Shown here: positions 11,659 to 38,633 of the stretch, one piece after another
Numbering within the stretch: the stretch's first letter is position 1
How the letters are laid out: each line of letters begins with the position of its first letter
NCBI GenBank assembly: GCA_015680905.1
Contig: CM027378.1
Span: 5,208,001-5,272,000, forward strand
Reading direction: 5' to 3'
From: Coptis chinensis
Taxonomy: Eukaryota > Streptophyta > Magnoliopsida > Ranunculales > Ranunculaceae
Length of the DNA stretch: 64,000 nucleotides
The notes under the pieces: model-generated
What the model saw: only the letters and a program-made list of their open reading frames with translations
The model's database searches: none
What the model was told of the DNA's origin: nothing
Program-made: the position numbers and the translations under genes

Positions 11659-11683
11659 CTAATTTAGACTCTTAGATCAGAGC

Positions 11684-12660
11684 TTGAATTACCATGAAAT
11701 TTTGCACGTCCAAGCAAAGGACATCCTCATCCAACAAGGTTTGCACAAGGCTTTAAAGGGGATTAAATCTAAGGTGACGAATATGAGTAATGATGATTGG
11801 GAAGAGCTCGATCTTCAGGCTTGTTTATCAATCCGATTATGTCTTGCTAATGAGGTCATGTATAGTGTGATGGGAGAAAATACCGCTGCCAGTATTTGGC
11901 TCAAACTAGAGTCTATGTATATGACCAAGAGCATGACAAACAAGATGTACCTTAAGAAGCGTCTTTATAGGTACATGATGGTCGATGGTTCAACAATGCA
12001 AGAGCACGTTAGTGAGTTCCGTCGACGTCTAGCGGATTATTTAAATGTTGGTATGAAGATGGATGATGAGGATCAAGCGGCATGTTTAATATTCTCCTTG
12101 CCAGAAAGCTATGAGCATCTAATGACTACATTTATGAACAAAGAAGTCGTCGATCTTGACGAAGTTCAGAGTGCACTTCTTTCTTATGAGTTGATGAAGA
12201 AGACACGTGTAGAGAATAACATTGATGCAGGTCAGAGGCTAGTGGCAAGAGGAAATTCGTATGAATAGAATTCTACAAGTAATAAGAATTCTAGGTCCAA
12301 GTCAAAGAAGCCTTTAAAACATGTACATTGCTACAATTGCAATGAAAATGGACATTATGCAAGTAATTGTCCTCACCCGAAGAAAGAGAACAAGAGAGAT
12401 GGTTAGAAGAAAGGTAAAGCAAAAATTGAGACAAGTTATGCTTCAGGCTCTGAAGAGGATGAGTTCAGTCTGTGTGTGTCCACACAAGACTATATGACCG
12501 AAAGGTGGATTCTTGATTCCGGATGTTCCTATCATATGTGCCCGAATAGAAAGTGGTTTACTTCTTATGAGAGCATTGATGGTGGTTCCGTTTTGATGGG
12601 TAATGACGTTACTTGTAAGACGGTAGGATTGGAACTATACGAGTCAAGATGTATGATGGT
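11684..12660 (+). pseudogene. Copia gag and protease
   Basis: Gag starts in mid-domain (HVQAKDILIQQGLHKALKG) and continues through SIWLKLESMYMTKSMTNKMY and EHVSEFRRRLADYLNVG. A TAG follows GNSYE at 12266-12268, then the CCHC nucleic-acid-binding knuckle CYNCNENGHYASNC is read in the same frame. A second stop lies before KKGKAKIE. The protease follows with [18 protein letters not shown]; the catalytic DSG is intact. The frame is lost near 12640. About 20 N-terminal residues of gag appear to be missing compared with family members. Confidence 0.85.
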
Positions 12661-15615
12661 GTAGTGAGGACTTTAACCGATGTGAGACATGTTCCTGCGC
12701 TAAAGAAAAGTCTTATTTCTCTTGGTACCTTGGATTCCAAAGGCCACAAGTTTGTGGGCGAAGGTGGAGTCCTAAATATTATTAATGGCTCTTTAGTTGT
12801 TATGAAGGGTCAAAAACATGGAACCTTGTATACTCTGATAGGTAGTATGGTGATAGGCGATGTAGTAGTGGGTGCATGTAGTAATGATTCTGAGTGCACT
12901 AAGATATGACATATGCGTTTAGGGCATATGAATGAAAAGGGTTTGTCTGAGTTGTGCAAGCGAGGGTTCTTGAAGAATTTGAAGAAGCCAAGTATGGGGT
13001 TCTGTGAGCATCAAGCGTTTATGGGAAGTGATCTGAGAGTCAAGTTCAAGTCAAGCAAGCACACGACAACAGGCATCCTTGACTATGTGCATACAGATGT
13101 TTGGGGACCCTCCCGGGTGGCTTCAAAGGGAGGTAACCGCTATTATGTCTCATTCATTGATGATCATACTCGCTATGTGTGGGTGTATATGATGAAATCG
13201 AAAGATGAAGTGTTTGAGACATTTAAGAAGTGGAAGGCAAGGGTTGAGAATCGCACAAATAGGAAGGTAAAGACATTACGGTATGACAATGGTACTGAGT
13301 ATACCTATGGACCTTTCCAAGAGTTTTGTGGGCAACAGGGAATTGCCAGACACTGGACAGTCAGGGGCACGCCACAACAGAATGGAATGGTAGAGAGGAT
13401 AAATAGAACCTTGCTTGAAAGAGCTAGATGTTTGTTGTCTAATGCCAGTCTAAGCAAAGAGTATTGGGCAGATGCAGTGTCCATAGCGTGTTACCTGTAC
13501 AATAGGTCACTAGTACCAGCTATAGATTGCAGGACACCTTATGAGGTGTGGTCAGGTAACCCAGCTGATTATAGTATTTTACGAGTGTTTGGATCGACAG
13601 CTTACTACCATGTGAGGGAAAGTAAGCTAGATCCTAGAGCTAAGAAGGCCATATTCTTAGGCTTCGCAAATGGGGTAAAGGGATACAGATTGTGGTGTCT
13701 AGAAGACCACAAGTTCCTGGTTAGCAGAGATGTTATCTTTGATGAGACTTCCGTGTTATCTTTCAGTAAGCCGGAAGTAGCTGGGCAGAATGGTGAGTCT
13801 ATAGAAGTTCAAGCTACTAAACTTGAGTTGTCTAATGCAGCAGATGACTGGTTAGATCATGATGAGGTACCAAATCATGGAACCACACATGCAGCAACAG
13901 GAAGAAGAGCAAGAGCATCCGCAACTTGTAGTGGCTAACCCTAGGCCAAAGAGACAAGTTAAAGAAGTGCACAAGTATGGGCATGAGAAGCCGGTGAAAC
14001 ACTATGGTCAGGTGGATTTAGTGACATATGTACTGAATATCGAAGATGATGAGCCAGATAGTTTCAAGAAAGCTGTTAGAGATGCTCATTACAGAGATTG
14101 GTTGGTAGCTATGCAAGCAGAGATGAAATCTCTTGATAAAAATCACACATGGGACCTAGTTTTATTGCCAAAGGGCAAAAGGACTATCGGCAGTAAATGG
14201 GTGTTCAGAAAGAAAGAGGTCCTTCTTGAGTCCGACAGTACTGGGTACAAGGCAAGAGTGGTAGCAAAGGGTTTTTCACAAAAGGAAGGAGTCGACTACA
14301 ATGAGGTATTTTCCCCGGTGGTCAAACATATGTCCATTCGTGTGTTATTGAGTTTAGTTGCTCACTTTGACTTGGAGCTAGAGCAACTTGATGTGAAAAC
14401 TGCTTTCTTGCATGGGGACTTGGAGGAAGAGATCTATATGAGACAACCTGAAGGGTTTGTCGTTGCTGAGAAAGAAGATCATGTATGCAAATTGAATCGG
14501 TCACTGTACGGCTTAAAGCAATTGCCCAGGCAATGGTATAAGCGCTTTGACACGTTCATGATGCAATATGAGTACACCCAAAGTAAGTATGATTGTTGTG
14601 TTTACTTTCGTAGGCTTCGTGGTAATGACTTCATCTATTTCCTGCTTTATGTGGATGATATACTTATTGCTTCCAAAAGCATGGTGGAGATAGATAAGTT
14701 GAAATCTAAACTTAGCTCTGAGTTTAAGATGAAAGACTTAGGTGGAGCCAAGAAGATACTGGGCATAGAGATTGACAGAGATAGGCAGAATCGACGGATA
14801 GTTGTATCTTAGAAGAAATACCTTCAGAAAGTACTTTCGCGTTTTGGTATGGAGAATGCAAAGTCGGTTTCTATGCCTTTGGCTGGGCATTTTAGGCTTT
14901 CAGCTAAGTTCTCTCCTAGTTTGGTGGAGGAACAAAAGCATATGGCACATGTTCCTTATACTAATGCAGTGGGCAGTTTGATGTATGTTATGGTGTACTG
15001 CTGCGCCCGGACATTTCACAAAGGCGATTAGTGTTGTGGCGGTATATGGCTAATCCTGGGAAGCAGCATTGGGAGGCAGTGAAATGGGTATTAAGGTACT
15101 TGAAGGGTACCTTGGATGTGGGATTAGTTTATGGTGGAGCCACTTGTTATGTCAGTGGATATGTAGATTCAGATTATGCAGGTGATCTAGATAGACGATG
15201 ATCGACTACTGGTTATGTGTTTATAATGCATGGTGCACCGGTTAGTTGGAGGTCTATACTATAGGCTACAGTTGCTCTATCTACTACTGAGGCAGAGTAT
15301 ATGGCAGTGGCAGAGGTAGTGAATGAGGCATTATGGCTTCGAGGTCTTTTGGATGATATGGGTATTGAGCAGAACAGTGTTGTTTTGCATTGTGATAGTC
15401 AGGGTGCTATTCATTTGGTGAAAAACCAGGTTCATCATGCTTAGACCAAGCATATTGATGTCCGTTATCACTTTATACGGGATGTCGTTGAGGATGGTGA
15501 TGTAGCACTTGAGAAAGTGGACACCCATGACAATCCTACTGATATGCTGACTAAGATTGTCACCGGAGTTAAGTTCCAACACTGTTTGGACTTGTTCCAA
15601 ATCCTACATGCATGA
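12640..15615 (+). pseudogene. Copia integrase, RT and RNase H
   Basis: After the protease frameshift the integrase zinc-finger region reads HMRLGHMNEKGLSELCK, preceded by a TGA where Trp is usual (12907). The DDE core is visible: YVHTDVWGPS (D), LRYDNGTEY (D) and GTPQQNGMVERINRTLLERA (E). The frame then changes near 13900. RT has LDVKTAFLHGDLEEEIYMRQ and the catalytic YVDDILIAS. A TAG replaces Gln after RIVVS, and another frameshift lies at about 14995. The RNase H part follows (VDSDYAGDLDRR with a TGA after it, TTEAEYMAVAEVVNEALW, HCDSQGAIHLVKN) and ends at the TGA at 15613-15615. All catalytic residues I could locate are kept; decay is by scattered nonsense and indels. Confidence 0.88.
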
Positions 15616-22026: not shown

Positions 22027-24621
22027 TGTGAAAGAAGCTTGAAACTTCTGTAAATTCCATTACAAAATGATAAAAGAGTTGAAAGCAAAAAAAAAAACAG
22101 CCTTACATAGTTCATAGTTCATAGTTCGGAGAAAAGACAGAGAGCACTAACTGAGTTGAGTGGTAGAAAAAAGGAGCCAACCCCTACTAATGAAAATGCC
22201 AAAAAATGGTTGAATATCTTATGTGTCTCACTGCACACAACCATATGAAACTCTTTTAACCACCAGAAGTGATCATTTGGTTCTGAACATGAGCAGAAGT
22301 AATAACTTTTACTTAATAAAGCTTAAAAGAAGGAAACCATTTAATTAGAATCTCTCTTCTTGTTCCTCCATACTTTCTAACCTTTTCTTTGGGAAGTCCT
22401 TTTGCATTAAAAGCAGAGAAGGAAATCACTATCAGTTAGTGAAGACCTTTGGTGGAAGAAAGTTATACACAGGTTTACACTCATGCAGAGTTGTTGACTT
22501 TAATGTCAATATCAAAATAGTATGTAAACTGACTCTACAATATCATTAAAAGTAGCATAGTAGAGGTAGGAAGAAAAAGGTCGTTACAAACTTACAATCA
22601 CATTCCCTTCTCTAGACTGAGTTAGGCAGCAGAACAGAAATTGGTGACTGCCCTGTCTTACTAACAGTTACCTATATACCACTTATGCATAGACATTATT
22701 CAAGGAGTAAGCTATCATTTAATTTTTTTTCGGTAAAAGAGTAGTCTGTCATGCATTAATGCTCACCTAGTTCAATACATTATTTGATAAAAACCAACTT
22801 TTGTATGATTTACCATAAATGTGCCCCTAATCCGATGTTAAATAATAATATTTTACAAGCATAACTACATGCATAATTGTCGACAGGTTAGAGCTAGTCC
22901 AGTGCATACCCTTGCTAAAATCATTTCGCACCCAATTGGGCAAAATACGCAACGCAACGCATGTGCAGTATCTGTCTCTCGTCCTTTCAGTGAATCATGT
23001 CTTGTTTGTCAACACCTTGGAAAAGGAAGTAATCTGAAATTTAAGCTCTTTCACAAGTACACAACATTATTAATATTGAGGTCAAAGCCTAAAAGTCTCA
23101 AACACATGCATTGAACATTTGAACTTGCGTTCATATAGGAGCTTGATCAGAAGTAAGCTGGACAAGTGTACAATGGCTTATTAGGATAATGCTAACTGTT
23201 AAATGTGCAGGCTTAAGAAGGTAACACTCATCTAGGAAAAGTACTCACGTCGGTAATTATCATTTAGAAAAATTACTCATGGTAGAAACAAGAGGATATG
23301 TGGAAACTAGATGTACATGTACTATATTATTTTTGGATAAAAGAGCTAGGAGGGTATGTGTATGTGTATAATATGAAAGTGCACCCTCAAAAAGGGCTAA
23401 AGAAAAAGGGATATAATTATGAAGTATACATTGGATACTTGCATAAAAGAAGTGAGACTTGTGTGGGGTTACTTTAGATTTTGCTGCAATGATCCTTATT
23501 CCAATATAAAATTAAAGATGCTCCTTATTGCTCAACGTGTCAAAGGGAGTTACCCATTGTCGTTGAATCCATGAATTAAGTAATGGTTATGGGCTTGACT
23601 ATTTGCAAGATGGATACAAAAGAGAAAGTGTAGTTTTGGTATGGTGAGGTGTGGTAGGGTATTCAGTTCCCTTCTTTTTTGTCGTCATTAAGACACGCTT
23701 GGGAAAGCTTCTTTTTTACATCGACAATTGAAAAGAAAAGTGACGAGGAAAGGAAAGGTAAGCGCCAGAGTGGGAGTTGTGATTTTTTTTGGCACATGCA
23801 TGTGTGGTGCAGGTCTTTTTGCTCCCTACCTTTGGGTTGGAACCCTAGCTAGTCCATGACTTCTTAGCCAAATATCATCTGTTCACAGGTTCACAAGTCA
23901 CAAGCCAACTTCACCCATATATCTTCTGTACAATATAATGTTCACTCGCATTCCCACATCACCAAATGTGTCTGTTTCATTGAAATCTATAAGCCCGGCT
24001 TGGCTTCTATAGTAAATTGGGCCCAAACGTACACTCATCTGAGAAAGTCCACACTTGTTCAGTTAGTTTGAGCGTAGCCTCAACATTCAATCGTAGCACA
24101 CACATCAAGCAAGCAGTCCTAGCACAGATGTGGACATGCAAACCCAGCAACTTTGCATTTCATTGCTAGGGACAAAGTCAATCATGTTAACACAACTAGC
24201 AATATACAATTGATTGGATTACGCAAAACTTTGGAGTTTGCAAAGTGATACAAAGATTATAAATGTTTTGCTTCTGATGTCATTGGGTTATCCAAGGTGT
24301 TTAGTTTGAAATATGGAAGTTATAAATTGTTTTACCTCAAAGTAATGGAAGAACAAATTTTCAAGTGGAACTGACAGACATGCTTGTGGTTCCATGAAGC
24401 AATTAATTTTCTTAGATACCACAAAAATAATGAAATCTCATCGCAACCAAAGTTACATTTTCCCCGAAGCATAATCAATGTTCTAGAGATGCCAATGTGT
24501 CTCTGTGATTTTTAATTAGGACTAATGACTTCATGTCGTGTAGATTAAGACACCCTAACCAAAAAAAAGGGGACTTCACCAAATTTCATGTGCCGTGTTT
24601 TTTAGGTTATTTATATCGCAA
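22027..24621. other. Upstream region of DUF547 gene
   Basis: About 2.6 kb of AT-rich DNA with no convincing gene on either strand. It should hold the 5' UTR and promoter of the minus-strand DUF547 gene. I could not pick a TATA box with confidence. No transposon ends were recognised before 24622. Confidence 0.5.
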
Positions 24622-25814
24622 CTGATAAGGAGAGATCATTCTCTCCTTCAATTAGTGCGCACTTTGCTTATAACCGTCCAAAAGGACAGCTCATACCCAG
24701 GTGGTATTTAGAACTAAAATGAAACTATCACGAGGCAAACAAAACAAAATAAAACGAGGCAAGCCTAAAAAAACAAGAGGTGAAAAAACTTACCATCTGA
24801 TAGTTTTTGCAACTGACCATATGATATTTGCTGAACAATCATCAAATCCTTAATTTCTGTTTTTTCTAGTGTCCTTAATCTTTACAAACCATTCTATGGA
24901 CTTTGATAGTTTGATTTTAAATGAGGTAATTTCCAACTTCTCATTGTTGGTACAGAAGACATAGCAAACATGATTTAGCAAATACCATCGAACGATGGGA
25001 ACCAAAAAATAGGGTTCAGCCACTTGGTTTTAATCCGGTTGAGTATAAACTCCTTCTATCGGTCCATACCACATAACTTTTCTATTTATCGGCCCATACC
25101 ACATAACCTTCTAGTTTTCCAATAACAAGGCAAATCCAGTCTGATTTTTATTTCCAATTTTATTTTATTATCCGTTTTACTATTTTTACAGATTCATCAA
25201 AATTTCGACCAAGAAGAACACCGATTTACCTACTTGGATAACACGATCTGACCTCCTTTGTTTCTCAATTGATGAAAGAAGGTTCGACGCTAAAGAGATT
25301 CATCTCTTTTCCATCTTCTTTGCGATTTTGATTTTGACCATGAAAATTTAAAGAGTTTATGACTATTTAGTACCACGTACTTTTATTTTTTTTTCCTAAA
25401 TGGTATCCGTACTTTGTTTCTCGCCTATTAGTACCACGAACTCTTAATTTGGTTCAATTTAGTACCTCCGTTTATTTTCTATCCCAATCTGTCAAATTTG
25501 TCTAACGATGACCTCACGTGTTTAACCACGTGACCTGGGTTTCTCTAATTAGCGCCAATAACCCAATTAGTTAGTTACGAACAGACAAACCCATTTACTC
25601 TCCTCTTTCACCCGTTTCCATCAACCAAACTCATATTCATACCTTCTAAACATGAAAACACACTCATACATACCCATCAACTAACTCACCTTCCTACCTT
25701 CTAATCATCAAAATCTCTAACAAAAAAACAAAGAAAACCAAATTCCAAATTACTATTTTTTCCAATTTGTTGAAGATTGTGACCTTCTTTGAACTTCCAA
25801 TTGGTTTTGGTTCT

Positions 25815-26055
25815 GTCAGAGTCAAGTTCTGTCTGATCAAGTTTGTGGTGAAACAAGTTCTGTCAGAGTCGAGTTTTGGTTTAAGTTTTTGGTTATGTTA
25901 GAGTCGAGTTTTGGTTTTGGATTCAGTTTTTGTTTTTGGTTCTGTCAGAGTCGAGTTTTGGTTTGCATTTTTGGTTTTGTCAGAGTCGGCGCGAGTTTTG
26001 GTTTTGGATGTACGCACCAAAAAACTCTGTGAATGTACGCACCAAAAAACTCTCT
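25815..26055 (+). repeat. Short irregular repeats in small MULE
   Basis: Five imperfect copies of a unit around TCAGAGTCGAGTTTTGGTTT, spaced 30-60 bp apart, followed by a tandem pair of ATGTACGCACCAAAAAACTC (starting at about 26008 and 26033). They are internal to the non-autonomous MULE and have no coding value. Confidence 0.75.
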
Positions 26056-26073
26056 GCAAGTTAAAACTATGTT

Positions 26074-26656
26074 GAGCCCCATTATCACTTGGTTATCACC
26101 ATTCTTACTAGAAGTTTTGGTCTGCCAAAGTAAGGATGATACATACTATGTAGCATACCATTTTCTGGATGATACATACTATATAGCATTCTGTCGAGCC
26201 CCATTATCACTTGGTTCTCACCATTCTTACTAGAATTTTTGGTCTGCCAAAGTAAGGATGATACATAATATGTAGCATACTATTGTCTGGATGATACATA
26301 CTATATAGCATCCTGTTGAGCCCCATTATCACTTGGTTCTCACCATTCTTACTGGAAGTTTTGGTTTGCCAAAGTAAGGATGATACATACTATGTAGCAT
26401 ACCATTTTCTGGATGATACATACTATATAGGATGCTGTTGAGCCCCATTATCACTTGGTTCTCACCATTCTTATTAGAAGTTTTGGTTTGCCAAAGTAAG
26501 GATGGTACATACTATGTAGCATACCATTGTCTGAATGATACATACTATATAGCATCCTGTTGAGCCCCATTATCACTTGGTTCTCACCATTCTTACTGGA
26601 AGTTTTGGCCTGCCAAAGTAAGGATGACACATATTATGTAGCATACCGTTGTCTAG
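26074..26656 (+). repeat. 122-bp tandem repeat, about 4.8 copies
   Basis: The marker GAGCCCCATTATCACTTGG begins at 26074, 26196, 26318, 26440 and 26562, an exact 122-bp period. Each unit also contains CCAAAGTAAGGATGATACAT and an internal shorter repeat GATGATACATACTAT. The copies differ at only a few positions each, so the array is recent or kept uniform. It fills the centre of the small MULE. Confidence 0.93.
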
Positions 26657-27545
26657 ATGAGAGTTCATCGTGTTTTTTATTTTGGTTATTTGAATTTGGT
26701 TTTGGTTTTTGACCAGGTAATGTTAGTTACCATTAATAACAAACTGATGAATGGTTATGCTATGAAAGCATTGAAACCCACTGCAAGGGTCTTCATTTTG
26801 TTGGTTTATGAGAGTGATAATTTATCATATCGTCCATACAAGATCCTCATGAAACCAATTATGAGTTATGACATAATGACAATCAATTTGAGTCACTACA
26901 TTAATGTATGGAAGTTCAAAGAAGGTGACAATTTTCAACAAATTGGAAAAAATAGTAATTTGGAATTTGGTTTTCTTTGTTTTTTTGTTAGAGATTTTGA
27001 TGTTTAGAAGGTAGGAAGGTGAGTTGGTTGATGGGTACATATGAGTGTGTTTTCATGTGTTTGGATGTTTAGAAGGTAGGAATATGAGTTTGGTTGATGG
27101 AAACGGGTGAAAGAGGAGAGTAAATGGGTTTGTTTGTTCGTAACTAACTAATTGGGTTATTGGCGCTAATTAGAGAAACCCAGATCACGTGGTTAAACAC
27201 GTGAGGTCCCCATTAGACAAATTTGACGGATTGGGATGGAAAATAGACGAAGGTACTAAATTGAACCAAATTAAGAGTTTGTGGTACTAATAGGCGAGAA
27301 ACAAAGTACATGTACCATTTAAGAAAAAAAATGAAAGTACGTGGTACTAATTTAAATAGTCATAAACTCAAATTTAAAAGTTAAATTCCTGAAAATATTA
27401 TTTCGTTGGTGATATTGACTATGTAAAAACACATTTACATATGTTTATCAATTTGTTTGCTAGACAATGATTACGATTTATTAGTTTTTTTTTTTTGTTG
27501 TTTTTTGCAAATGTAGACATGTAAGGGACTGCTCTTTTTGCTATT

Positions 27546-29889
27546 ATGTACGATACACAAATTATGAGTGTCCGTGTCGAGACTAACGGTATAATTGCTG
27601 ATTTGAAGTGTACGATTTCTGAAAAGTGGTCAAACCTTACTCCCTTGTCTATAGAACTGTCTTTTGTAAGGGATTCAAAGCGTATTGTGATAGATACTGA
27701 CTCAGAGCTTCAATCCCTTGTTTGCTTCAACTTGGTTAAAGGTTTTGATACATTCTTGATAACAGCATCGTCAAGAGGATTTTTTGCTTTGTGTGACGCT
27801 GGTTCTAGTTCCAAAATCTCTCTTTAGGCTTCTTCTTTTACTTCTAGTTCTTCTATGTCTTCTGCTACATATGATAAAAAATATATATTAATGTCGCTTC
27901 TTTGCCTATTTTGACTGGTGTGGGACAGAGATTTCCTGGTGGTGCTGCTAATTTTTGAGTTGAGCTTTTACGTCATTGTCTTGTTAATCATTACAAAGTT
28001 CTTATTAAGAAGAATGATCCTAATAGAGTCACGGCTGAGTATTATTTGAATACTGAAACTGGGTGTCTATGGAAAGTTCACGCATCCAAGAAGTATAAGA
28101 TGTCGAAGTTCTTTGAAATAAAGACAATGGAAGCAAAACACATATGTGGAGCTGGATTCGCTAACGTTAACAATCCCCCAATGAATAGTAAACTTGTAAA
28201 GAGTATTGTTTTAGATATGGTGAGAGACAAGCCTTTGATTAAGCCAGGTAAAATCACTGACCATTTTCTAAGGGTATATGGTGTGAACTTGAATTATTAT
28301 TTTGCGCATACTAGCATAGATCTTGCATTGAATGAGATACATGGGGACCATGATTTATCTAATCATCAGTTACATTGGTATGTTGGAAAGCTAAAATAAA
28401 CCAATCCAGGGAGTCATGTTGTTTTGGAAAAGGAATCAACAATAGGAAAGTTTAAGAGATTATTTGTTGCATTTGGTGCTTGTATTCATGGCTTTAACTT
28501 CTGTCGTCCTATGCTTTGTTTGGATGGAAATTTTGTGAAAACAAAATACAAGGGGTGTGTCTTGTCAGCTACTGCCAAAAATGCAAATGGGGGTATGTCT
28601 TTTTAAGTTTGTGACTTTTCACATAGTAGTTCATAGTAGTTTATAAAATTGAACAAGTATAAACTATGAAAATTTATGTTCACATAGTAATTTAGCCTAT
28701 GCATTTTAATATTTACATAATAATTTAGCCTATGAAAATTTATTTTTACATATAAGAGTTAAGTTTTCATAATGAGTATGGTACACAAAACCAAATCAGT
28801 AATTGATGTTTATTTGTGTTCCAGGTGTTTTTCCAGTAGCTATGGCAGTTGTACTTTCTGAAAATGATGACAATTGGGATTGGTTCTTGAAGCAACTTAG
28901 GTTGGTGGTCTCCAAAGATCGTAGGCTAACGTTTATATCTGACAAAAACCATGGTCTACTCGTGGGTGTCTCTCACATTTTTCCTGATTCCCATCATGGT
29001 TATTGCTTGTGGAACCTTAAAAATAATCTTAATTCAGCTATGCCCAACAACCATTGCTTTCGCTTGCATACCCTGGATCTCTTTTCAAACCTTGCCTATG
29101 CTGGGACACACCATGAGTTTGAGAAAGTGATGGCTGATTTTCGAGATGTTTGCGGCCATCAAGCTAAGTGAAAACATTTTTGTCCACCACAGGCATTGGT
29201 GTAATGCTTATTTTCAAGGAAATAGATATGGGGATATGTGCTCCAATATTGCGGAAAGCTTCAACTCTTAGATCCTACTAGAACGCCACTTGCCTATCAC
29301 TGCAATGGTGGACAAGATATGTGGGAAAATTATGAAAATGATGTCTGATCAACGGGAGTTAGCTTGGAGTTGGACTACTATCTTATGTTCATCTATGGAA
29401 ACTTTATTGGCTTAGAGGATCGAGGTGGGGAGAAATTGGGTGGTTCTCAAGTCAAGGGAGGGTATTTTTGAGGTGTGTGCTACTCATACTCACTTGGTTG
29501 ACTTGAATAGAAGTCACTGCTCTTGTAATTGGTGGAGAATCGAAGGATTCCCTTGTGCCCACGCACTGCGCTCCATTTTGGCTGATGGATTGAATGTGTA
29601 TACCTACTATGATAACTTCTTCTATTCTCAAACATTCCATGATAGTTATTCATGAGCTATAGTACCTGTGGAGAACAGTAAAATGCCTGCTAAGATACCA
29701 AGTGTGCCTGATTTACTACCTCCGGATCTGAAAAAGAAGAAGGGAAGACCAAACAAGAAACGGAAGCACAACACGGGTACTACAAGAGGTAAGAAGAAGA
29801 ACAAGGGCCCTTGCTATGGCCACCGTAACCCAAGAGTGGGCTCCACTCCTACAACATGCTCTGCACTAGTTCAATTATCTATTCTTTGA
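27546..29889 (+). pseudogene. mudrA-type MULE transposase
   Basis: The order of domains is: a PB1-like N terminus (residues from MYDTQIMSVRVETNGIIADL), a MuDR DNA-binding finger region (TGCLWKVHASKKYKMSKFFE, AKHICG), the MULE transposase core and a C-terminal SWIM finger (HCSCNWWRIEGFPCAHALRS). Core motifs are PMLCLDGNFVKTKYKG (first Asp), GVFPVAMAVVLSENDDNWDW and LTFISDKNHGL (second Asp), then HHGYCLWNLKNNL. A GT-AG intron at 28593-28824 joins NANG to GVFPVA. Stops or frameshifts lie near 27826, 27957, 28398, 29169 and through 29170-29420. The tail is basic (PPDLKKKKGRPNKKRKHN). It would cut and paste the element; this copy is dead. Confidence 0.88.
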
Positions 29890-30960
29890 TGGTTGCTCTT
29901 ATATAAAAGCAAGATGTCAATGAATTTACTTTTTTTAATCTATTCTTTGATGTTGCTCGTATATGAAAAGCAAGATGTCAATGAACTTGATTTCTTTTTT
30001 CTGATGTTGGATTTTATAGTTTGATGTTGGATTTTATATGTTACATTTTTTAGTTGGAGAATTTTAAAACAGCTAGTCAAAAGAGGTTTTATATTACTGT
30101 GTAAAGATAATTTTACATAGTAACTTTTGAGAATGAAATTAGCCTGACACATGAAAGAATATATGTAAATATATTTTTACATAGTCATTATATATGTAAA
30201 TATATATTTACATAATAACGTGACCTATGCAAACTTAAATATACATAGTAACTTTTGGGATTGAAAAGATCCGGACACCTGACCAAATATATGTAAATGT
30301 ATTTTTACATAGTCATATATATGTAAAACTATATTTGCATAGTCACTAAATCTATGAAAACTTAAATTTACACAGTAGCTTTTGGGAATGAAATTAGCCT
30401 GACACCTTACAGAATATATATAAATGTATTTTTACATAGTCATTATATATGTAAATCTATATTTACATAGTCACTAAAGTTTTGCTATCTAATTTAGTAG
30501 GTGTTTGAGCTAGTTTTGCTATCCAATTTAGGGATAGAGGATGAAATGGTGATCAGGTGTTTGGAGATTATGTGTTTGTGATGACAATAAATAACTTCTT
30601 AATAACTACCATATTGAAGTATGTTATTAGGACAAAGAGTGGTTTTCAAGTAACCTTGGATTCACAAATATGAATAATTATATTGGTGCTTAACCTGACA
30701 GAGAAAGGGACTCTGCGCTGCACACATAATATTTCCAGAAAAGCTATAAACATTTCATCCATCATAATAAAATGTTTTGGCAAAGTAACCATACAAAAAA
30801 GTATAATCCAGCAAAGACTGAATATGCAGAACAATACTAAACAACTCCAACACATCAACAGTAATAGTACATCATAATCGAACACTCCCAAGTTAGAATG
30901 GTTCCAATGTTTTACCACAAATAAACACAACGTAATCAACTAGAAATACGGAAAATCAGT
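29890..30960. other. Spacer between transposase and ULP-like gene
   Basis: AT-rich convergent intergenic region of the large MULE. It contains the 127-bp tandem repeats at 30114-30478. No coding domain is recognised; the catalytic-Cys region of the ULP-like protease would be expected near its right end on the minus strand but was not identified. Confidence 0.5.
30114..30478 (+). repeat. 127-128-bp tandem repeat, nearly 3 copies
   Basis: Units begin at 30114, 30242 and 30369 with TACATAGTAACTTTTG-like sequence, then AATGAAATTAGCCTGACAC and several TTTACATAGT motifs. Copies are diverged (about 80-85% by eye). The same TTTACATAGT/TATGTAAA words recur in the transposase intron region (28620-28790) and in the ULP-gene intron (32738-33060). 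Confidence 0.8.
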
Positions 30961-30999
30961 TCTTCATTTCTTGCATTCTTCTTTTGGATCCCATTTTTC

Positions 31000-33900
31000 T
31001 TGTTAGCTTGATACAATCTCATATGTCAGGTCAACCCACTCTTCATTTCATAGATTTTTTTTTCTTGTAGTTCCTTGGCCTTAAAGAGTCATAGTGCGTC
31101 CATTCCCAATTCAAAGTATCAACATGAAGCAAAGTCTAGTGATAACCATTTTTGTACTTTCTTAACTTGGGACTATTTATGATGAAAAACAGATGGGTGA
31201 CCTTGTTGTCCAATTGTTTTAGGACATCCGTGACATAGACTTTCATGCCTTGTTTATGGTTATCTCTTAAAGTCAGCTATAACAAATAAGAACAACAACA
31301 TCTTCATAGATTTTGTGAATTTATATATTCAACTTCAGTAATTAAATTACATAGAAGATGCTTACCCATGCAAATGATGAGAAATGGAGACACTTTGGTG
31401 GAGAACATCCAATTAGCTTTTCCACTTCCTTGGGGAGTTGGAAGTGCACGTACCAATCAATAATCTACCATAAACAGTACGAAAAATTACTAAATTGCAA
31501 GTTTTTTCATTTCAAAAGATTTAAGTAATCAAAAGATTTACCTTATCACTAACGAAGAAGTTCAACATCATGTGGTTCAAGCGTTCCCCCTGTATTTTCA
31601 AATGCATTTGGATGTCCATCCACGCAATTGTACTGCAATATGCATACATGATCAAAACAATTTGTGCAACTACATAGACGATAAGAAAAACTTACATATA
31701 TTTATGAAAAGTAAATTTTACTTATGGTTTGCTTTTTTGAAAAAACTTTCCACCAACGGCAACTTCTCTTTATCAAGTAGATTCCATAACTTGGTTGAAT
31801 GTGGCCTTGACATAGGCTTTCCTACGCGTGGTGGTGGAGTCTCGAAATCATCTGCATCAATCACCGGTTCATCATCCAATTCAATTTCAGCAACTTTAGT
31901 ATTCCTTGTTTGCTTCTTAATATTTCCGAACTCATATATCGTTGATGTTTTCTTCATCCACTCCCTTTCCTTCACTTTCTTAAACATCGAGTTAGGTTTT
32001 CCCTCACCTTTTTCCTCCTCTTCATTTGACTTTGTTTCTATGCTTTTCTCCTCTCCATCCAACTCGGATTCTTCCTCTTCATCTGCCCTTCCTTTCTCTT
32101 CCTCTTCACATGTCTCTTTCTTAGACAACTCAGTCTCTCCAATGTCCTCCTTTTCAGCCAACTCTTTCTCGGACAACTCAGACTCTCTTTTGCCATCCTC
32201 TTCAACTAAATCCACATCTCCTCTGTTCTCTACCCCTTCAACCATATCTACATCTCCTCCTCCTTCAACCATATCTACATCTCCTCCCCCTTCAACCAAA
32301 CCGACATCTCCTCCCCATAGAACTCGCTATGTTCATGATTTTCAAACATATATTCTAGATTTTCTTCACAAACTATTCTCGTCAGTCTACCAAGTTCACC
32401 CCTTAAATCTTTATTAAGTTTCCTCAACTCTTCATTCTCCCTCTTCAACTCAGCATTTTCCCTCCTCAAGCTTTCAGCTTCACTTTGGTGATGTTCAGGG
32501 TATAATGCCTCTTTCTCTTCCTCGGTTAGTTCCAATCTTACTTTGATGTGGCAATTGGGAACATTTTCTAGATTAAAAGTTTTTGGTACTTCATCCGCTA
32601 GTTGTTCCATCGACCACTTTGCAATCCGTAGAAAGCAAGTTTCGCGTACTAGCTCACAAAATTTCACATGCTCACACAAAAAGTACTGCACATAACATGT
32701 GAATTTGTATTAGCAACATTTTAATAGAATTCTTTTTCTAACATATGACATATGACATCTACATTAGATATGTAAATATGAATAAACATATGTAAATTTC
32801 TATTTTCATACACCTGACAGGTGATATAGACTATGAAAATATGACTATGCATATGTGAAAACAAACTTACATATGAAAATACTAAAATGCAGACAATATA
32901 ATGTTGATATATTACCAACATATGACATCTGATATATGCATATGCATATGCAAATATATATTTTCTTACATGTGAGGTGATATAGGCTATGAAAATATGA
33001 CTACGCATATGTCAGAAAACAACTAAACTTACATATGAAAATATGAATTTGTAGACAATGTAAGTATCTTACCAAAAGCTGAATGATGCATCCTGAAATT
33101 TTGAACGGACTACTGCTATCCCACTTTTGAATTTTTTCAATCAATTCTGAGTGAACTGAGGTAGCCCATAACACACTCCACATAGCTTCCAAAGTCTCAA
33201 CATGCTTTGGGAAAGACCAAGTTATTACACTCACGTACCAAATACTGTCATCACCAGAAAAATGACGAGTAGTCTCACCACATCTTCAATATCCGTAGGG
33301 TCTGTTGAGTCTACAATCTGGTTCAAGATTTCTTTTACAATCGTTGTTGTTATCTTGTTAACTCTGGAGAAACGTCTCAACAGGAATAATGATCCAGAAA
33401 TAGCTTCATCTATTTTCGTTCCTGACTGGAAAACAACAACTTTCCCCATCATGGGAAGCCCAAAGGTTATAGCCACATCAGATGGACATAAAGACACAAA
33501 CTGATTTCCTATCTTAAACTTAGTAAGAGAGAAGGGAAATTTGAGATCTAGGTTTTTATGTGTGGGGGTATTTTAGTCAGTTCAGGTGTTTTAGAAAAAA
33601 AGGGGGTTTTTATGGGTTAGTACGTAGTGAGGGGGTTTTTATGCAGGATGTTTATGAACCAGGGAGATTAAACCCAAAATCTGCAATGGGAACACACCCA
33701 TACAATTTTTAATCCATGGTAATTATTTTGGGGTCCTGTATTGGGTAACCACGGAATTCGATTGGGCAGCCTCCAGCCTAAGCCCAACAAGAAGCCCAAT
33801 AGCACACCATAGCCCAATACACCCCTACACTGAAACGCATATCGGTTATCAATTTTTCGAACCGTTTTAGCCAATATCATCTCTCTCGTGAGATTGAACC

Positions 33901-34402
33901 CAAAAAAAAAAAAAAAAAAATTTAGTCATGTTCATACTACAAATTAACACTTAATTAATATAAATAACTCAAAAATTTGTCCAACGAATACTTGAACAAC
34001 TCCGGAAGGAAGGTTGAGCAAATTTTCGACAGGCTCAGCACAAAGGCAATCCATCCATTCTTTATCAATTGATTCCCAAAGCATATCTTGTAAAGTATAA
34101 TGAAAGAGAGTTAAAAAAGTGGAGATATTAATACATGTGCGTGTATAAGCTATAGAAAAAGAAAGAAAGCAGAAAAACGTACATACCTTGAAGAAATTAA
34201 TGACGTGAGAGTCCATTAAAGGTTTATATGGTTTAAGGAAATGGATAATGGCATTCATCCATTCTAGCGTTTCACTTGTTGTCTTGCACGAGTATTGGTG
34301 TTGCTCATAAGCCATCCCTCTCGTTCTGGTTTCAAGCTTCTTCGGATAAGTGAGTCCAAACGACCCAGCCATGTCACCCAAGAGAGTCCCCAAACGACCC
34401 AT
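31000..34402 (-). pseudogene. ULP1-like cysteine protease gene in MULE
   Basis: Minus-strand spliced gene. It begins near 34402 (GDMAGSFGLTYPKKLE), then WMNAIIHFLKPYKPLMDSHV and, after an intron, EPVENLLNLPSGVVQ. A conserved block follows (LCPSDVAITFGLPMMGKVVV, VITWSFPKHVETLEAMWSVL). Then come a coiled coil (AELKRENEELRKLNKDLRGE) and an acidic low-complexity part with three DVDMVEGGG-like units. The protease domain starts near 31630 with VDMDIQMHLKIQGERLNHM-like sequence (first residues approximate) and has YVTDVLKQL, then His followed by TAG where Trp is usual, TLLHVDTLNWEWTHYDSL and its Asp. The stop disrupts the catalytic domain, and the Cys motif was not found. Relatives remove SUMO-type modifiers; family copies in MULEs have unknown roles. 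Confidence 0.75.
32738..33060 (-). repeat. Duplicated 156-bp unit in ULP-gene intron
   Basis: Two diverged copies of a unit containing AACATATGACAT, GATATAG.CTATGAAAATAT and CTTACATATGAAAATA. The second GATATAGG lies 156 bp after the first (32823 and 32979). The DNA is AT-rich and sits in the intron between the conserved block and the coiled-coil exon. Confidence 0.7.
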
Positions 34403-34495
34403 ACATGTCGTCTTGGCGATTGCCTAAACGAACCCGCCATATCGTCTAGCTAAAAACCAGAGAGTTTTGTCTCAAATGATACGCGCAGACTGCTG

Positions 34496-34617
34496 GAGTG
34501 TACACTGAAATGACATTACGAGACCGTTCGAGTGTACACTCAAATGACATGGCGAGAGCATTCGAGTGTACACTCAAACGATATGGCGAGACCGTTCGAG
34601 TGTACACTCAAACAACC
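34496..34617 (-). repeat. 34-bp array of perfect palindromes upstream of ULP gene
   Basis: Units start at 34496, 34530, 34564 and 34598, an exact 34-bp period with 3.6 copies. Each opens with the 12-bp perfect palindrome GAGTGTACACTC (the first copy ends in G instead of C), followed by AAATGACATGGCGAGA-like sequence. The array lies about 95-215 bp upstream of the proposed minus-strand start at 34402, in promoter position. Evenly spaced dyads of this kind suit binding of a dimeric protein, but that is inference. Confidence 0.85.
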
Positions 34618-35195
34618 CCGTGGTTTCAACATGGCTAGACCGGTTGGACTTCTTGTTGGGCTTGGGCCCAATACAATTTTTTTTTTTAGAAAATGGCAAA
34701 TTTGTAATATATATTTTTTTTGGGGGTTTGCCCAATGCAATTTCATGAGTGCCCGATTAAACTACCTTATTTTGTTCTTAAGAAATATTGATGCAAAATC
34801 TATTGCAATACCACTTTAAATCTCAAATTTGATCTAAACTAGGGTATTATAGCATTTAATTTGCCAAATTAAAGACAAAATAGAACTTTTTCATTCGATT
34901 ATATTTCTTCGTAATTTCTGGTGATATGCAACGGCGAGGTTTCCGACCAACGACAACGACTTTGGCCATGAAAAGATGGAGAGAGGAGAGAGGAGTTCCC
35001 AAACCCAGAGAGTAGAGACGGAGAGAGAAGACTTCATATTCTCTTTTAATTACTGTAGATGCCTCATATCATCAAACTCTTTTAGTTGTCAAGCCACGTG
35101 GGAATCTCGAGATAAGAGTATAAGACACATCTCAATTTAGACAGTTGGTAAAAGTTGCGCTCTAATTCAAGGAGAGAATGATCTCCCCTTATCAG

Positions 35196-35570
35196 GATTC
35201 TATCTATATTTACTTTTCTACATATTGTTGTATCAAAGGAAGGTTCTAAAGGTGGCCTGAGATGCTAACTATGTTAATTAATGAGTGTTAGTTCATGCGT
35301 GTTAAAATTGTAGCTTTTGGGATTGATATCATGCGTGCTCAAACTTTACTCATATTTCATACCCAACCTACTAGCAAGTAAATATTAGGAACTTCAATGT
35401 AAGGGGAATTAAGATGCACTTGTTGAGCTATAATCAGATAGACAAATGTTAAGTTGTTGGGACTTGGGATATGGCATGTAGGAGAAAGAGTCGTTATCCA
35501 AGACATAATCGATTCTAGCAAACAGTTAAAACTTACAAGGCAGTGAACCCACCTCAGATGTATTGACATA
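35196..35570. other. Gap between MULE and hAT
   Basis: A 375-bp AT-rich stretch between the right MULE repeat and the hAT end. I see no gene or repeat in it. Confidence 0.5.
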
Positions 35571-36062: not shown

Positions 36063-36173
36063 AAAAAATCATGACTTGTACTCATCATATTCACCTAACT
36101 AACTAATGGGGAGGGATAAAGGCACATTCTTATGCGCACATTATACCCACATTTTTCACATACAAATGAATTA

Positions 36174-36409
36174 AGGCCTGGTTTTTTGTGAAGATGATCT
36201 CCCCACTATGAAGATCATTCTTACAAAAAATTATAATATTTAGATATGTCTAACTAACCATGTAAAAATTAGTGTTCATTTTTTAGCTTTTCATCTAACG
36301 GTCCAAAATTTTTGTGAGTATGTTCTAAGGTTAGATTTCTTTGAATAAGCTGAATTTTTGTGAGGATGTTCTCCATGGTGGGGAGATTATATCTACAAAA
36401 ATTCAGCCT
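36174..36409. mobile_element. Tourist-like MITE, TTA target duplication
   Basis: The ends AGGCCTGGTTTTTTGT (left) and, read inverted from the right, AGGCTGAATTTTTGT are terminal inverted repeats with ATCTCCCCAC inside both. It is flanked by TTA on each side (36171-36173 and 36410-36412), the 3-bp duplication of PIF/Harbinger elements. It is 236 bp long with no coding sequence and is inserted in the hAT element. Confidence 0.75.
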
Positions 36410-38633
36410 TTAATTTAACTTTTAAGTCTAATAAACTTTCACAGTAGTCTAAGTATTAAATTAAATTTGCAAGTACAAAAACTATATTCTAGCACAATAA
36501 TATCTAAGTCTAACTATCTAACCAATAATATCTTTCATATAGCATAAAGTGGCTTCGGTCTAGTAGTGTAAGAGGGGTACGGACGTACGGTCTTGTGCTT
36601 GACTTGTATACAAGTGAAAAAAAAAATCGTTATCATAATTATTTATGATATTCATAGCAGAAAATGTCATCTCCACGGTGGCAGTAGCAACATGTAAAAT
36701 CAACACCAACTTAATTAACAAATAAATAAGTGGGTACACAATGTATTTCTTCGTCTCAACCATTTTTTTTAGCTAAGCCGCTAATTCCATTTACCCCACC
36801 AAACTTAGTATCAGAACGTACATCAATGATATAATTCTCAAGATGATCCGCTAATTATATTCCATCCGATCTATCTCTGAAAAATCATCGGGATAAAGTA
36901 AGTTGAGCAAAACGGATCAACTTTTGCTTATCAAAAGCAACAAACGACTCACTACAATCAAGACATGTCATACAAAGAAGTAATTTTGAGTTTGTTTCAT
37001 TAAACCGGTCGTTTAACTCTTAAAGTTGCAAATCAATACAATTGGTAGATTAATCCAACATGATAGTAACGTATATTGGTGCTTCCTTCCAGTCTTCATC
37101 GAAGCCTCCCTCAAGCCACATACGTCTCTTCCATATTTGGAACAACCACATCATGTTTGGCACATAATAAAGAAACTTAAGTCAGGAGACTATCCCACCT
37201 ATCATCTCTCATAATCTATAAGCGTACCTTTGTTATTTTAGCAAGAGCCATGACATTGACAATTTCTTGGTCTTCACGCTGCAAAGCCTTTGACAAATCA
37301 TTACTAATTCCTAGTATCATTTTCATCAAATATAAATTGAAGATAAATTCAAAAGACTGCACTGCATTAAATCCAATAATCTATAAGTCTCACCTCTTTG
37401 TTTCGAGCTTGAACCATCTTTTGTTACATTATCAAACACATCAACTACTAAACCATAAGTGTTAATCATGCCAAAAAGTGTATAACATTGTGAGCCCCAT
37501 CAAGTGTCACTAGATCTAAAAAGGTTAGCGATTGACTCATGTTCTTTGCAATTGATACAATGGCTAATTGAAGTTAGCGAGCAAAACAATGAACATAAAA
37601 TGCATGCATACTCATTCTCCTTCATTATAAGTGCTTTTAGGCCATTCAAATCACTTTGCATATTGTTGGCCCTATCATACCCTTGCTCACGCAGTCTAGA
37701 TATGCTCAATCCATGCTTGGAGAATAACTCATTGATTGCCTTTTTAAGTGTTACCGCACTAGTTTTCTTAACATGCACAACTCCGAAAAAGATCTCAATC
37801 ACATAACATTTCTTGTCGACATAACGCAAAACAATTGTCATTTGCTGCTTAATTGATATATCACATGTTTCATCAACTAAAATAGCAAACAATGAATTTT
37901 CATAATCCTTTAGAATAACATTTGTAGTTTCCATAGCAGTTGCATCCACAATATCTTTTTGGATATATATCAGGCCAGGTCAATTTCCAATTTTTAGAAG
38001 CATTATCAAAAACTTTCTTAAATTTTTTGTTATGATCTTTCAAAAACCATATAAGTTTCAAGAAAATTGCCTTTATTGATCGACTCCTCTGATTCATCAT
38101 GGCCACGGAAAGCTAAACTTTGTCTCAAAAGAAACCTAATGCAATCAGTTATTGAAGTTAGGTGTATTTGATAATCCCTTCGAACTTTGTCAAATTGTCT
38201 ATGAAGAAATATTTCAATATGCTGCTCTTGATTTAGCAATGCCTATGCTACCTTGTAAGGAATATTGTGAGCACTATTTGGTCCTCCAACATGCTCTTTT
38301 AATTTGGTTTTCCTTTCCCAATTAGCAAATTCCCTGTGAGAAAAAACATCACCGCCTCTTTGTGCCCCCTTATCAGGTTTAAAGAGATAACAAATATAAA
38401 CAAAACGCAGTATCCTCATGAATACTATATTCCAACCAACTAAATTCTCTATACCACTCTTGCTGAAAGTGTTAGATTCTCTTGTCTATTATCCTTGGAG
38501 GAAAAACATGATTAGGCTGGCAAGGGCCCCTAAGCAAATATGCTCTTCTCACCGAGTCTTGATCATTAGGATGATAATTTGAAATCTTTTTCCTCAGTGC
38601 AGGGTCTCCTGGAAGACTAGACAAGTCGAGTTC

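Follow-up and report, generated by a model that had tools for sequence, protein, structure and literature searches.

KAONASHI (KI) Mutator-like elements (MULEs) and their KIU genes are said to have been described in Arabidopsis by Hoen in 2006, ULP-carrying MULEs of melon and rice by van Leeuwen in 2007, and anti-silencing by KIU proteins by Sasaki in 2022. Here we analyzed a locus of this kind in a 64,000-nucleotide stretch of Coptis chinensis DNA (G000:C2:5208001-5272000, hereafter the window), in which a preliminary description had joined a mudrA transposase gene and a convergent ULP-like protease gene into one MULE bounded by inverted repeats. Our results show that the pairing of the two genes is real and of a known kind, and that the unit as first drawn is a nest. 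The presumed single MULE at 24617-35200 consists of at least four dead elements: an outer shell, element A with the mudrA and ULP genes, and elements B and C.

As the preliminary description held, ULP-like genes are known from plant MULEs, where they have been described since 2006-2008 (PMC2528002; this and the other papers are cited from excerpts of their text). It had also called the pairing unexplained. This stands for the Ulp1 domain, whose own role is called unknown, but no longer fully for the elements, as KIU-carrying Vandals are reported to use KIU proteins as anti-silencing factors (PMC13317346). Element A resembles KAONASHI/KIU in having a C48/ULP domain gene opposite to mudrA within one element, a high copy number, no clear long terminal inverted repeats (TIRs) and a C48 domain that has been kept (PMC2528002, PMC6117577, PMC13317346). 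In contrast, the N-terminus of the A protein matches the plant mobile domain (PMD) and no DUF1985 was reported there, and the likeness is one of description. In the ULP MULEs of grapevine the ULP gene also lies downstream of the transposase open reading frame (ORF), in either orientation, in TIR and non-TIR elements and with 9-nt target site duplications (TSDs) where these were found; this is another genome, and neither a PMD nor noncoding motif arrays are mentioned in the excerpts of PMC2528002.

VANDAL elements likewise combine a transposase with a second factor, VANC, which has a variable region with tandem peptide motifs, and they carry motif repeats upstream of genes and in introns (PMC5735166, PMC10398659). 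Unlike VANC, the ULP protein of A gave no report of DUF1985/DUF287, and A is known from sequence alone. A PMD inside a MULE is also found in the PMD-C proteins, for which the authors speculate on anti-silencing (PMC5418596), but those proteins, described from grasses and Amborella, are fusions with the transposase, whereas in A the PMD-like domain is on a separate gene together with C48. The combination of PMD, Ulp1 and Mutator was not found in the literature that we covered, which was partial, and no title listed there named a PMD-ULP fusion. Possibly, the PMD-like N-terminus in combination with the motif arrays described below is new.

A nest of at least four elements

The features of the nest are as follows (window positions; strand where there is one).

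24608..24616: left TSD of the shell, TATTTATAT, 8/9 identical to TATCTATAT at 35201-35209
24617..25002, plus: left part of the shell with its TIR; same end at other loci, homologous to the C3 and C7 copies
24994..25002: left TSD of A, GATGGGAAC, shell sequence, present once in the C8 empty site
25003..33684, plus: element A, the mudrA and ULP MULE, with short imperfect terminal similarity, interrupted by C
25344..25352: TSD of C, AAATTTAAA, repeated 9/9 at 27370-27378
25353..27369: element C, nested in A, TIRs of about 0.45 kb, lacking in four full A copies
27521..29895, plus: mudrA transposase gene, disrupted by stops and frame changes, with a presumed intron at about 28596-28820
29896..30530: array of TATGTAAA/TTTACATA motifs between the two genes, holding 11 of A's 17
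31001..33522, minus: ULP-like gene remnant with PMD-like N-terminal part, coiled coil, acidic DVDMVEGGG block and C48 remnant; the 5' part and the Cys exon are lost by deletion
31037..31054, minus: Cys-exon deletion junction, with extra DNA at this point in other copies
33685..33693: right TSD of A, AATGGGAAC, 8/9 identical to the left copy
33685..33730, plus: middle part of the shell, between A and B, joined to both shell halves in C8, C3 and C7
33731..34765, minus: element B, 1,035 bp, multicopy, TSD ATTATTTTG/CTTATTTTG; captured gene fragment at about 34043-34339
34766..35200, plus: right part of the shell with its TIR
35201..35209: right TSD of the shell, TATCTATAT

The nest was resolved by searching the genome (935.6 Mb) for related loci. 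A locus on C8 (C8:11341500 onward) shares the left flank and shell of the window (23478-25002, 89%) but lacks A and B. The C8 shell is uninterrupted through GATGGGAACACACCC...ATTATTTTGTTC, and in the window A and B are each flanked on both sides by a 9-bp copy of the respective C8 repeat (8/9 identical). The shell is contiguous across both junctions also in a copy on C3 (88% over 108 bp) and one on C7 (70% over 383 bp), and therefore the C8 state is the old one, and both A and B were inserted later. Similarity to the C8 copy is lost short of the right end of that copy, and its TSD is visible at the left only, where it carries TATCTATAT in place of TATTTATAT.

If the shell ends were instead the true ends of a mudrA-ULP element, the C8 locus would be an internal deletion product. 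The common left flank and shell would fit such an origin, and both junctions could be mimicked by deletions between short direct repeats, but the C3 and C7 copies are contiguous across the same two points, the ends of A recur elsewhere with other flanks and their own 9-bp TSDs, and other A copies are without detectable shell ends. We consider a single unit highly improbable. Almost certainly, the first insertion was that of a FAR1-type MULE with an internal deletion, and the surrounding DNA was duplicated (C2/C8). On the C2 copy, the separate MULE A with its convergent mudrA and ULP genes entered the shell, as did the gene-capturing element B, and C inserted into A later. Both genes of the window's A are broken.

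The inverted repeats, first given as 57 bp, were found as inverted ends at 24622-24661 and 35156-35195 (40 nt, 93% complementary), and only about 40 bp of them align. Their 27-base core matched twice within the window and never in 100 shuffles. The left shell end was found at 46 other genomic places, merging to 38 loci (best 40 of 118 candidates scored). The shell was placed at 24617-35200 because readable ends of other copies give the termini: L005 starts with GGCAACTGATAAGG, ends with CCTTATCGGGACTT and has the perfect TSD GTAGAAGAA. In further readable copies the TSDs were 8/9 (L008), 6/9 (L007) or not convincing (L006).

A fuller family member, the 4.9-kb C3 copy (L013), has TATATTTTT at both sides as a perfect 9-bp TSD and encodes a FAR1-type transposase (FAR1 E 8.3e-24, MULE E 4.7e-5; the sole copy scanned), and the C7 copy has ORFs similar to these as judged by eye. 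We take the FAR1 domain to be linked with Jittery-type MULEs, which concerns the shell only. The domains and TSD of the C3 copy are like those of Jittery/FAR1-type MULEs; the window's shell differs in that a FAR1-type gene is not clearly discernible in it (best E 0.26). The shell belongs to a MULE family other than that of A, and the shell family also exists as short elements.

No scored mudrA or ULP copy was found within 20 kb of the 38 other shell-end loci (0/38), and a search for shell ends in four full A copies and 19 other ULP loci found nothing. The preliminary description had taken the repeats as bounds of the mudrA-ULP unit and proposed a genome search with them for more copies of the pair. 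That search led to the 38 loci, away from scored copies of both genes, and the unit's own ends are at 25003 and 33684. Occurrence in separate elements with different ends had been named as evidence against it; this was seen for the ends, which lie apart from scored mudrA and ULP copies, and not for the pairing.

Element A and its two genes

With a query extended beyond A, 12 of the 19 other ULP loci cease to match at 33682-33684, while L030 matches to 33692, L019 partially, and L021, L023, L024, L033 and L034 not at all at this point. For 13 loci the right end could be located, and their flanks differ, except for L031 and L032, which descend from one insertion since their flank is common to both. 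Among the 19 ULP loci fetched, four full copies of A were read (L016, L017, L018 and L028), and with a query from 24900 these begin to match at 25000 or later. A query from 25003, with which 32 of 39 other places start at base 1-2, cannot reach further left and is no proof of the end; the left end instead rests on the extended-query matches together with the adjoining TSDs in L016 (TTTTACTAG) and L018 (TACAAAAAG), both 9/9. The TSD of L028 is 8/9 in a shifted register, and L017, in which matching begins only at 25114 and the left end is missing, has none. All four match the window colinearly over mudrA and ULP (L018 is without the end of mudrA), and in each of them C is absent and its site is contiguous. 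A has the transposase domains and the 9-bp TSD of MuDR-type elements, and its terminal similarity is short and imperfect as judged by eye. Evidently, A is a multicopy MULE family separate from the shell.

The claim that transposase and ULP gene belong to one MULE was borne out, as 4/4 full copies carry both. Outside the window 39 mudrA places (247 candidates) and 39 ULP places (327 candidates) were obtained, with 40 scored each and secondary pieces dropped; both counts are lower bounds because the best 40 were scored per query. For 22 of the 39 mudrA places a scored ULP partner lies within 16 kb, always in the geometry of the window and never in a wrong one. This was further supported by the 39 scored left ends of A, which gave 15 pairs with the 39 ULP places, none in a wrong geometry, where about 0.02 are expected by chance.

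The plus-strand mudrA of the window was confirmed by its MULE domain (E 4.7e-11), with DBD_Tnp_Mut (E 2.3e-5) just under the cut-off; in other copies DBD_Tnp_Mut (3.2e-10), SWIM (7.3e-6) and MULE (1.3e-5) were found. The convergent minus-strand ULP-like gene is equally present, and the catalytic His, the HVDTLNWEWTHYDSL block and the coiled coil are readable as first described. The reported change of a Trp codon beside the His to TAG was also recovered: a stop directly follows the His in the window, where 19/19 other copies have Trp. The DVDMVEGGG block, at first not known from the family, is a family feature, since other copies examined carry DVDMVEGGG-like blocks; the coiled-coil stretch recurs in examined copies as well. 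Peptidase_C48 gave only E 0.08 in the window copy; in L028 the His exon (E 2.5e-4) is above and the Cys exon (E 0.012) below the cut-off.

Across the 19 other copies His and Asp are each kept in 17/19, and the Cys motif, which the preliminary description proposed to look for, is kept in 18/18 alignable copies. The copy in the window has lost its Cys through deletion of the Cys exon. At 31054/31037, 18 of the 19 other copies are longer by about 430-690 bp (L034 by 1.3 kb), including an SSDCGFF stretch, while L033 does not reach the junction. Relative to most copies that reach across, a second deletion of about 660-770 bp lies at 33522. DYVVFICG near 30920 (minus strand) was considered as a mutated Cys box and rejected, as other copies show that the Cys exon is deleted and that this stretch lies beyond it; an ORF at 33944-34423 was likewise rejected as part of the gene, since it lies within B. 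The PMD (PF10536) matched the N-terminus in 5/5 members, picked from 20 loci for an open frame (best E 3.5e-8).

Mean pairwise dN/dS was 0.54 (171 pairs), and ranged by exon from 0.27 to 0.82, the latter in the Cys exon. The ratio of nonsynonymous (N) to synonymous (S) changes was 1.99 (141/71) for changes common to at least two copies vs. 2.89 (309/107) for singletons (Fisher p 0.033, stops counted as N, with 59 multi-step variants and columns with fewer than eight copies dropped). This contrast weakly favours past constraint on the ULP gene.

A putative anti-silencing role of the ULP gene

The noncoding parts of A contain arrays of an 8-mer, TATGTAAA/TTTACATA, selected as the most enriched in three noncoding stretches of the window's A. 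It occurs 17 times in noncoding A, not in the coding blocks, C or B, and six times in the remaining 53.3 kb of the window; shuffles of four noncoding stretches gave 0.44 expected and at most 3 in 500. In the 13 A copies with a located end (the other six are without one) we counted 216 motifs within the elements (64.9 kb) and 0 in their flanks (7.3 kb), and in the four full copies 104 in 18.5 kb of noncoding DNA, 0 in 14.7 kb of coding DNA and 1 in 12.7 kb of flank, with the left limit of A assumed for L017 and L028. The motif also occurs upstream of mudrA and in its intron, and is densest between the genes and in introns. In the window five dyads of the form TATGTAAA-N6-TTTACATA have a gap of exactly 6 (4-8 bases allowed), and in the four full copies and the window 8 of 20 neighbouring dyad distances below 200 bp are 31 bp. 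This is about three helical turns, although tandem duplication alone could explain the spacing. VANC is reported to target tandem-repeat motifs upstream of genes and in introns, and its variable regions often have tandem peptide motifs (PMC5735166). The arrays of A resemble these targets, and family-specific motif repeats in noncoding DNA, a feature of VANC systems, are present in A as anatomy only.

By analogy, the ULP gene may have acted as a VANC/KIU-like anti-silencing factor while A was alive, for which we see a little less than an even chance. The encoded factor would have combined a PMD-like N-terminus, a coiled coil, variable acidic repeats and a C48 protease, and could have bound the motif dyads, its candidate target, in noncoding parts of its own family. 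Binding would have relieved host silencing there, as reported of VANC and KIU for Arabidopsis VANDAL elements, and the protease step, which is a guess, might have stripped silencing proteins at the bound copy of SUMO or a relative. The PMD is known from plant silencing. In a more specific version, A would be a MULE lineage with an anti-silencing factor of a PMD fused to a ULP protease and its own dyad code, TATGTAAA-N6-TTTACATA, over introns and intergenic DNA, that is, a VANC variant turning a host silencing-pathway domain (MAIN/MAIL) against silencing; this we consider rather unlikely.

Several observations weigh against such a role. The motif was chosen after inspection of the window, and since the copies share ancestry they cannot test it independently. 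DUF1985 and DUF287, the VANC domains, were not reported in 5/5 N-termini (E up to 1), the first member scores 31.3 bits for the PMD vs. the Pfam cut-off of 34.9, and the structure predicted for the N-terminus was of unusable quality (pLDDT 43.5). The selection signal is weak, with sites and copies that are non-independent. For 17 of the 39 scored mudrA places a scored ULP partner is absent; these may be truncated, or their partners may lie beyond the scored lists. Finally, stops or broken codons occur in each of the 19 other ULP copies, so that the search for intact copies, proposed at the outset, yielded 0/19 and no working ULP protein was seen; L019 has no stops and five broken codons, and broken codons may partly be alignment errors.

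The same decay is what would be expected if the ULP gene were a captured passenger without a role in transposition. Capture is frequent in MULEs (PMC2528002), B seems to be an instance, and the overall dN/dS, above all that of the Cys exon, would fit. The same geometry relative to mudrA is nevertheless kept in 22 pairs, the active-site residues are nearly invariant and N changes are depleted among the shared ones, and a mere passenger is in our view somewhat unlikely. Alternatively, the ULP protein may have aided integration or the transposase itself, with the dyads as transposase or promoter sites. The mudrB gene of maize MuDR is thought to be a transposition helper, and MuDR has two convergent genes, a layout shared by A; the motifs upstream of mudrA and within its intron would also suit this function. 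Their density is, however, highest in introns and in the DNA separating the two genes, and the terminal stretches of the window's A gave a count of zero, so that a helper function appears unlikely. Taken together, nested architecture and anti-silencing role form our best explanation of the locus, which as a whole we regard as fairly probable.

Elements B and C, neighbouring features and implications

A copy of B on C5 (L040) contains the same fragment and has the TSD ATATTTTAA on both sides. Among the 39 other primary B matches five consist of the inner fragment alone (twice on C2, twice on C21, once on C27), as expected for a captured gene piece; the search scored the best 40 of 1505 candidate matches, with a query that could not reach past the ends of B and gives no proof of them. 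A guessed origin of the 33944-34423 ORF from a methyltransferase gene found no support, with no match in Pfam at E up to 1 or in the PDB at E up to 10, and L042, one fragment-matching place that was fetched, was not recognisable. By eye, C holds an array of direct repeats of about 120 bp at about 26040-26650.

Outside the nest, a minus-strand ORF at 37500-37979 resembles what we take, by eye, to be a piece of a hAT-type transposase. Copia-like polyprotein pieces were seen by eye at 11663-14812, with a related stretch near the C3 shell copy. An inverted repeat at 36169-36415 (86-nt arms, 73% complementary, 75 nt apart) is possibly a short hairpin element.

This case illustrates that nested MULEs may pass for a single element, and that an empty site at a paralogous locus allows them to be told apart. 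The duplication of 23478-25002 on C8 is usable for dating A and B. With its many datable copies, a candidate recognition motif and a PMD-like domain, the A family offers a test case for why ULP genes travel with transposases.

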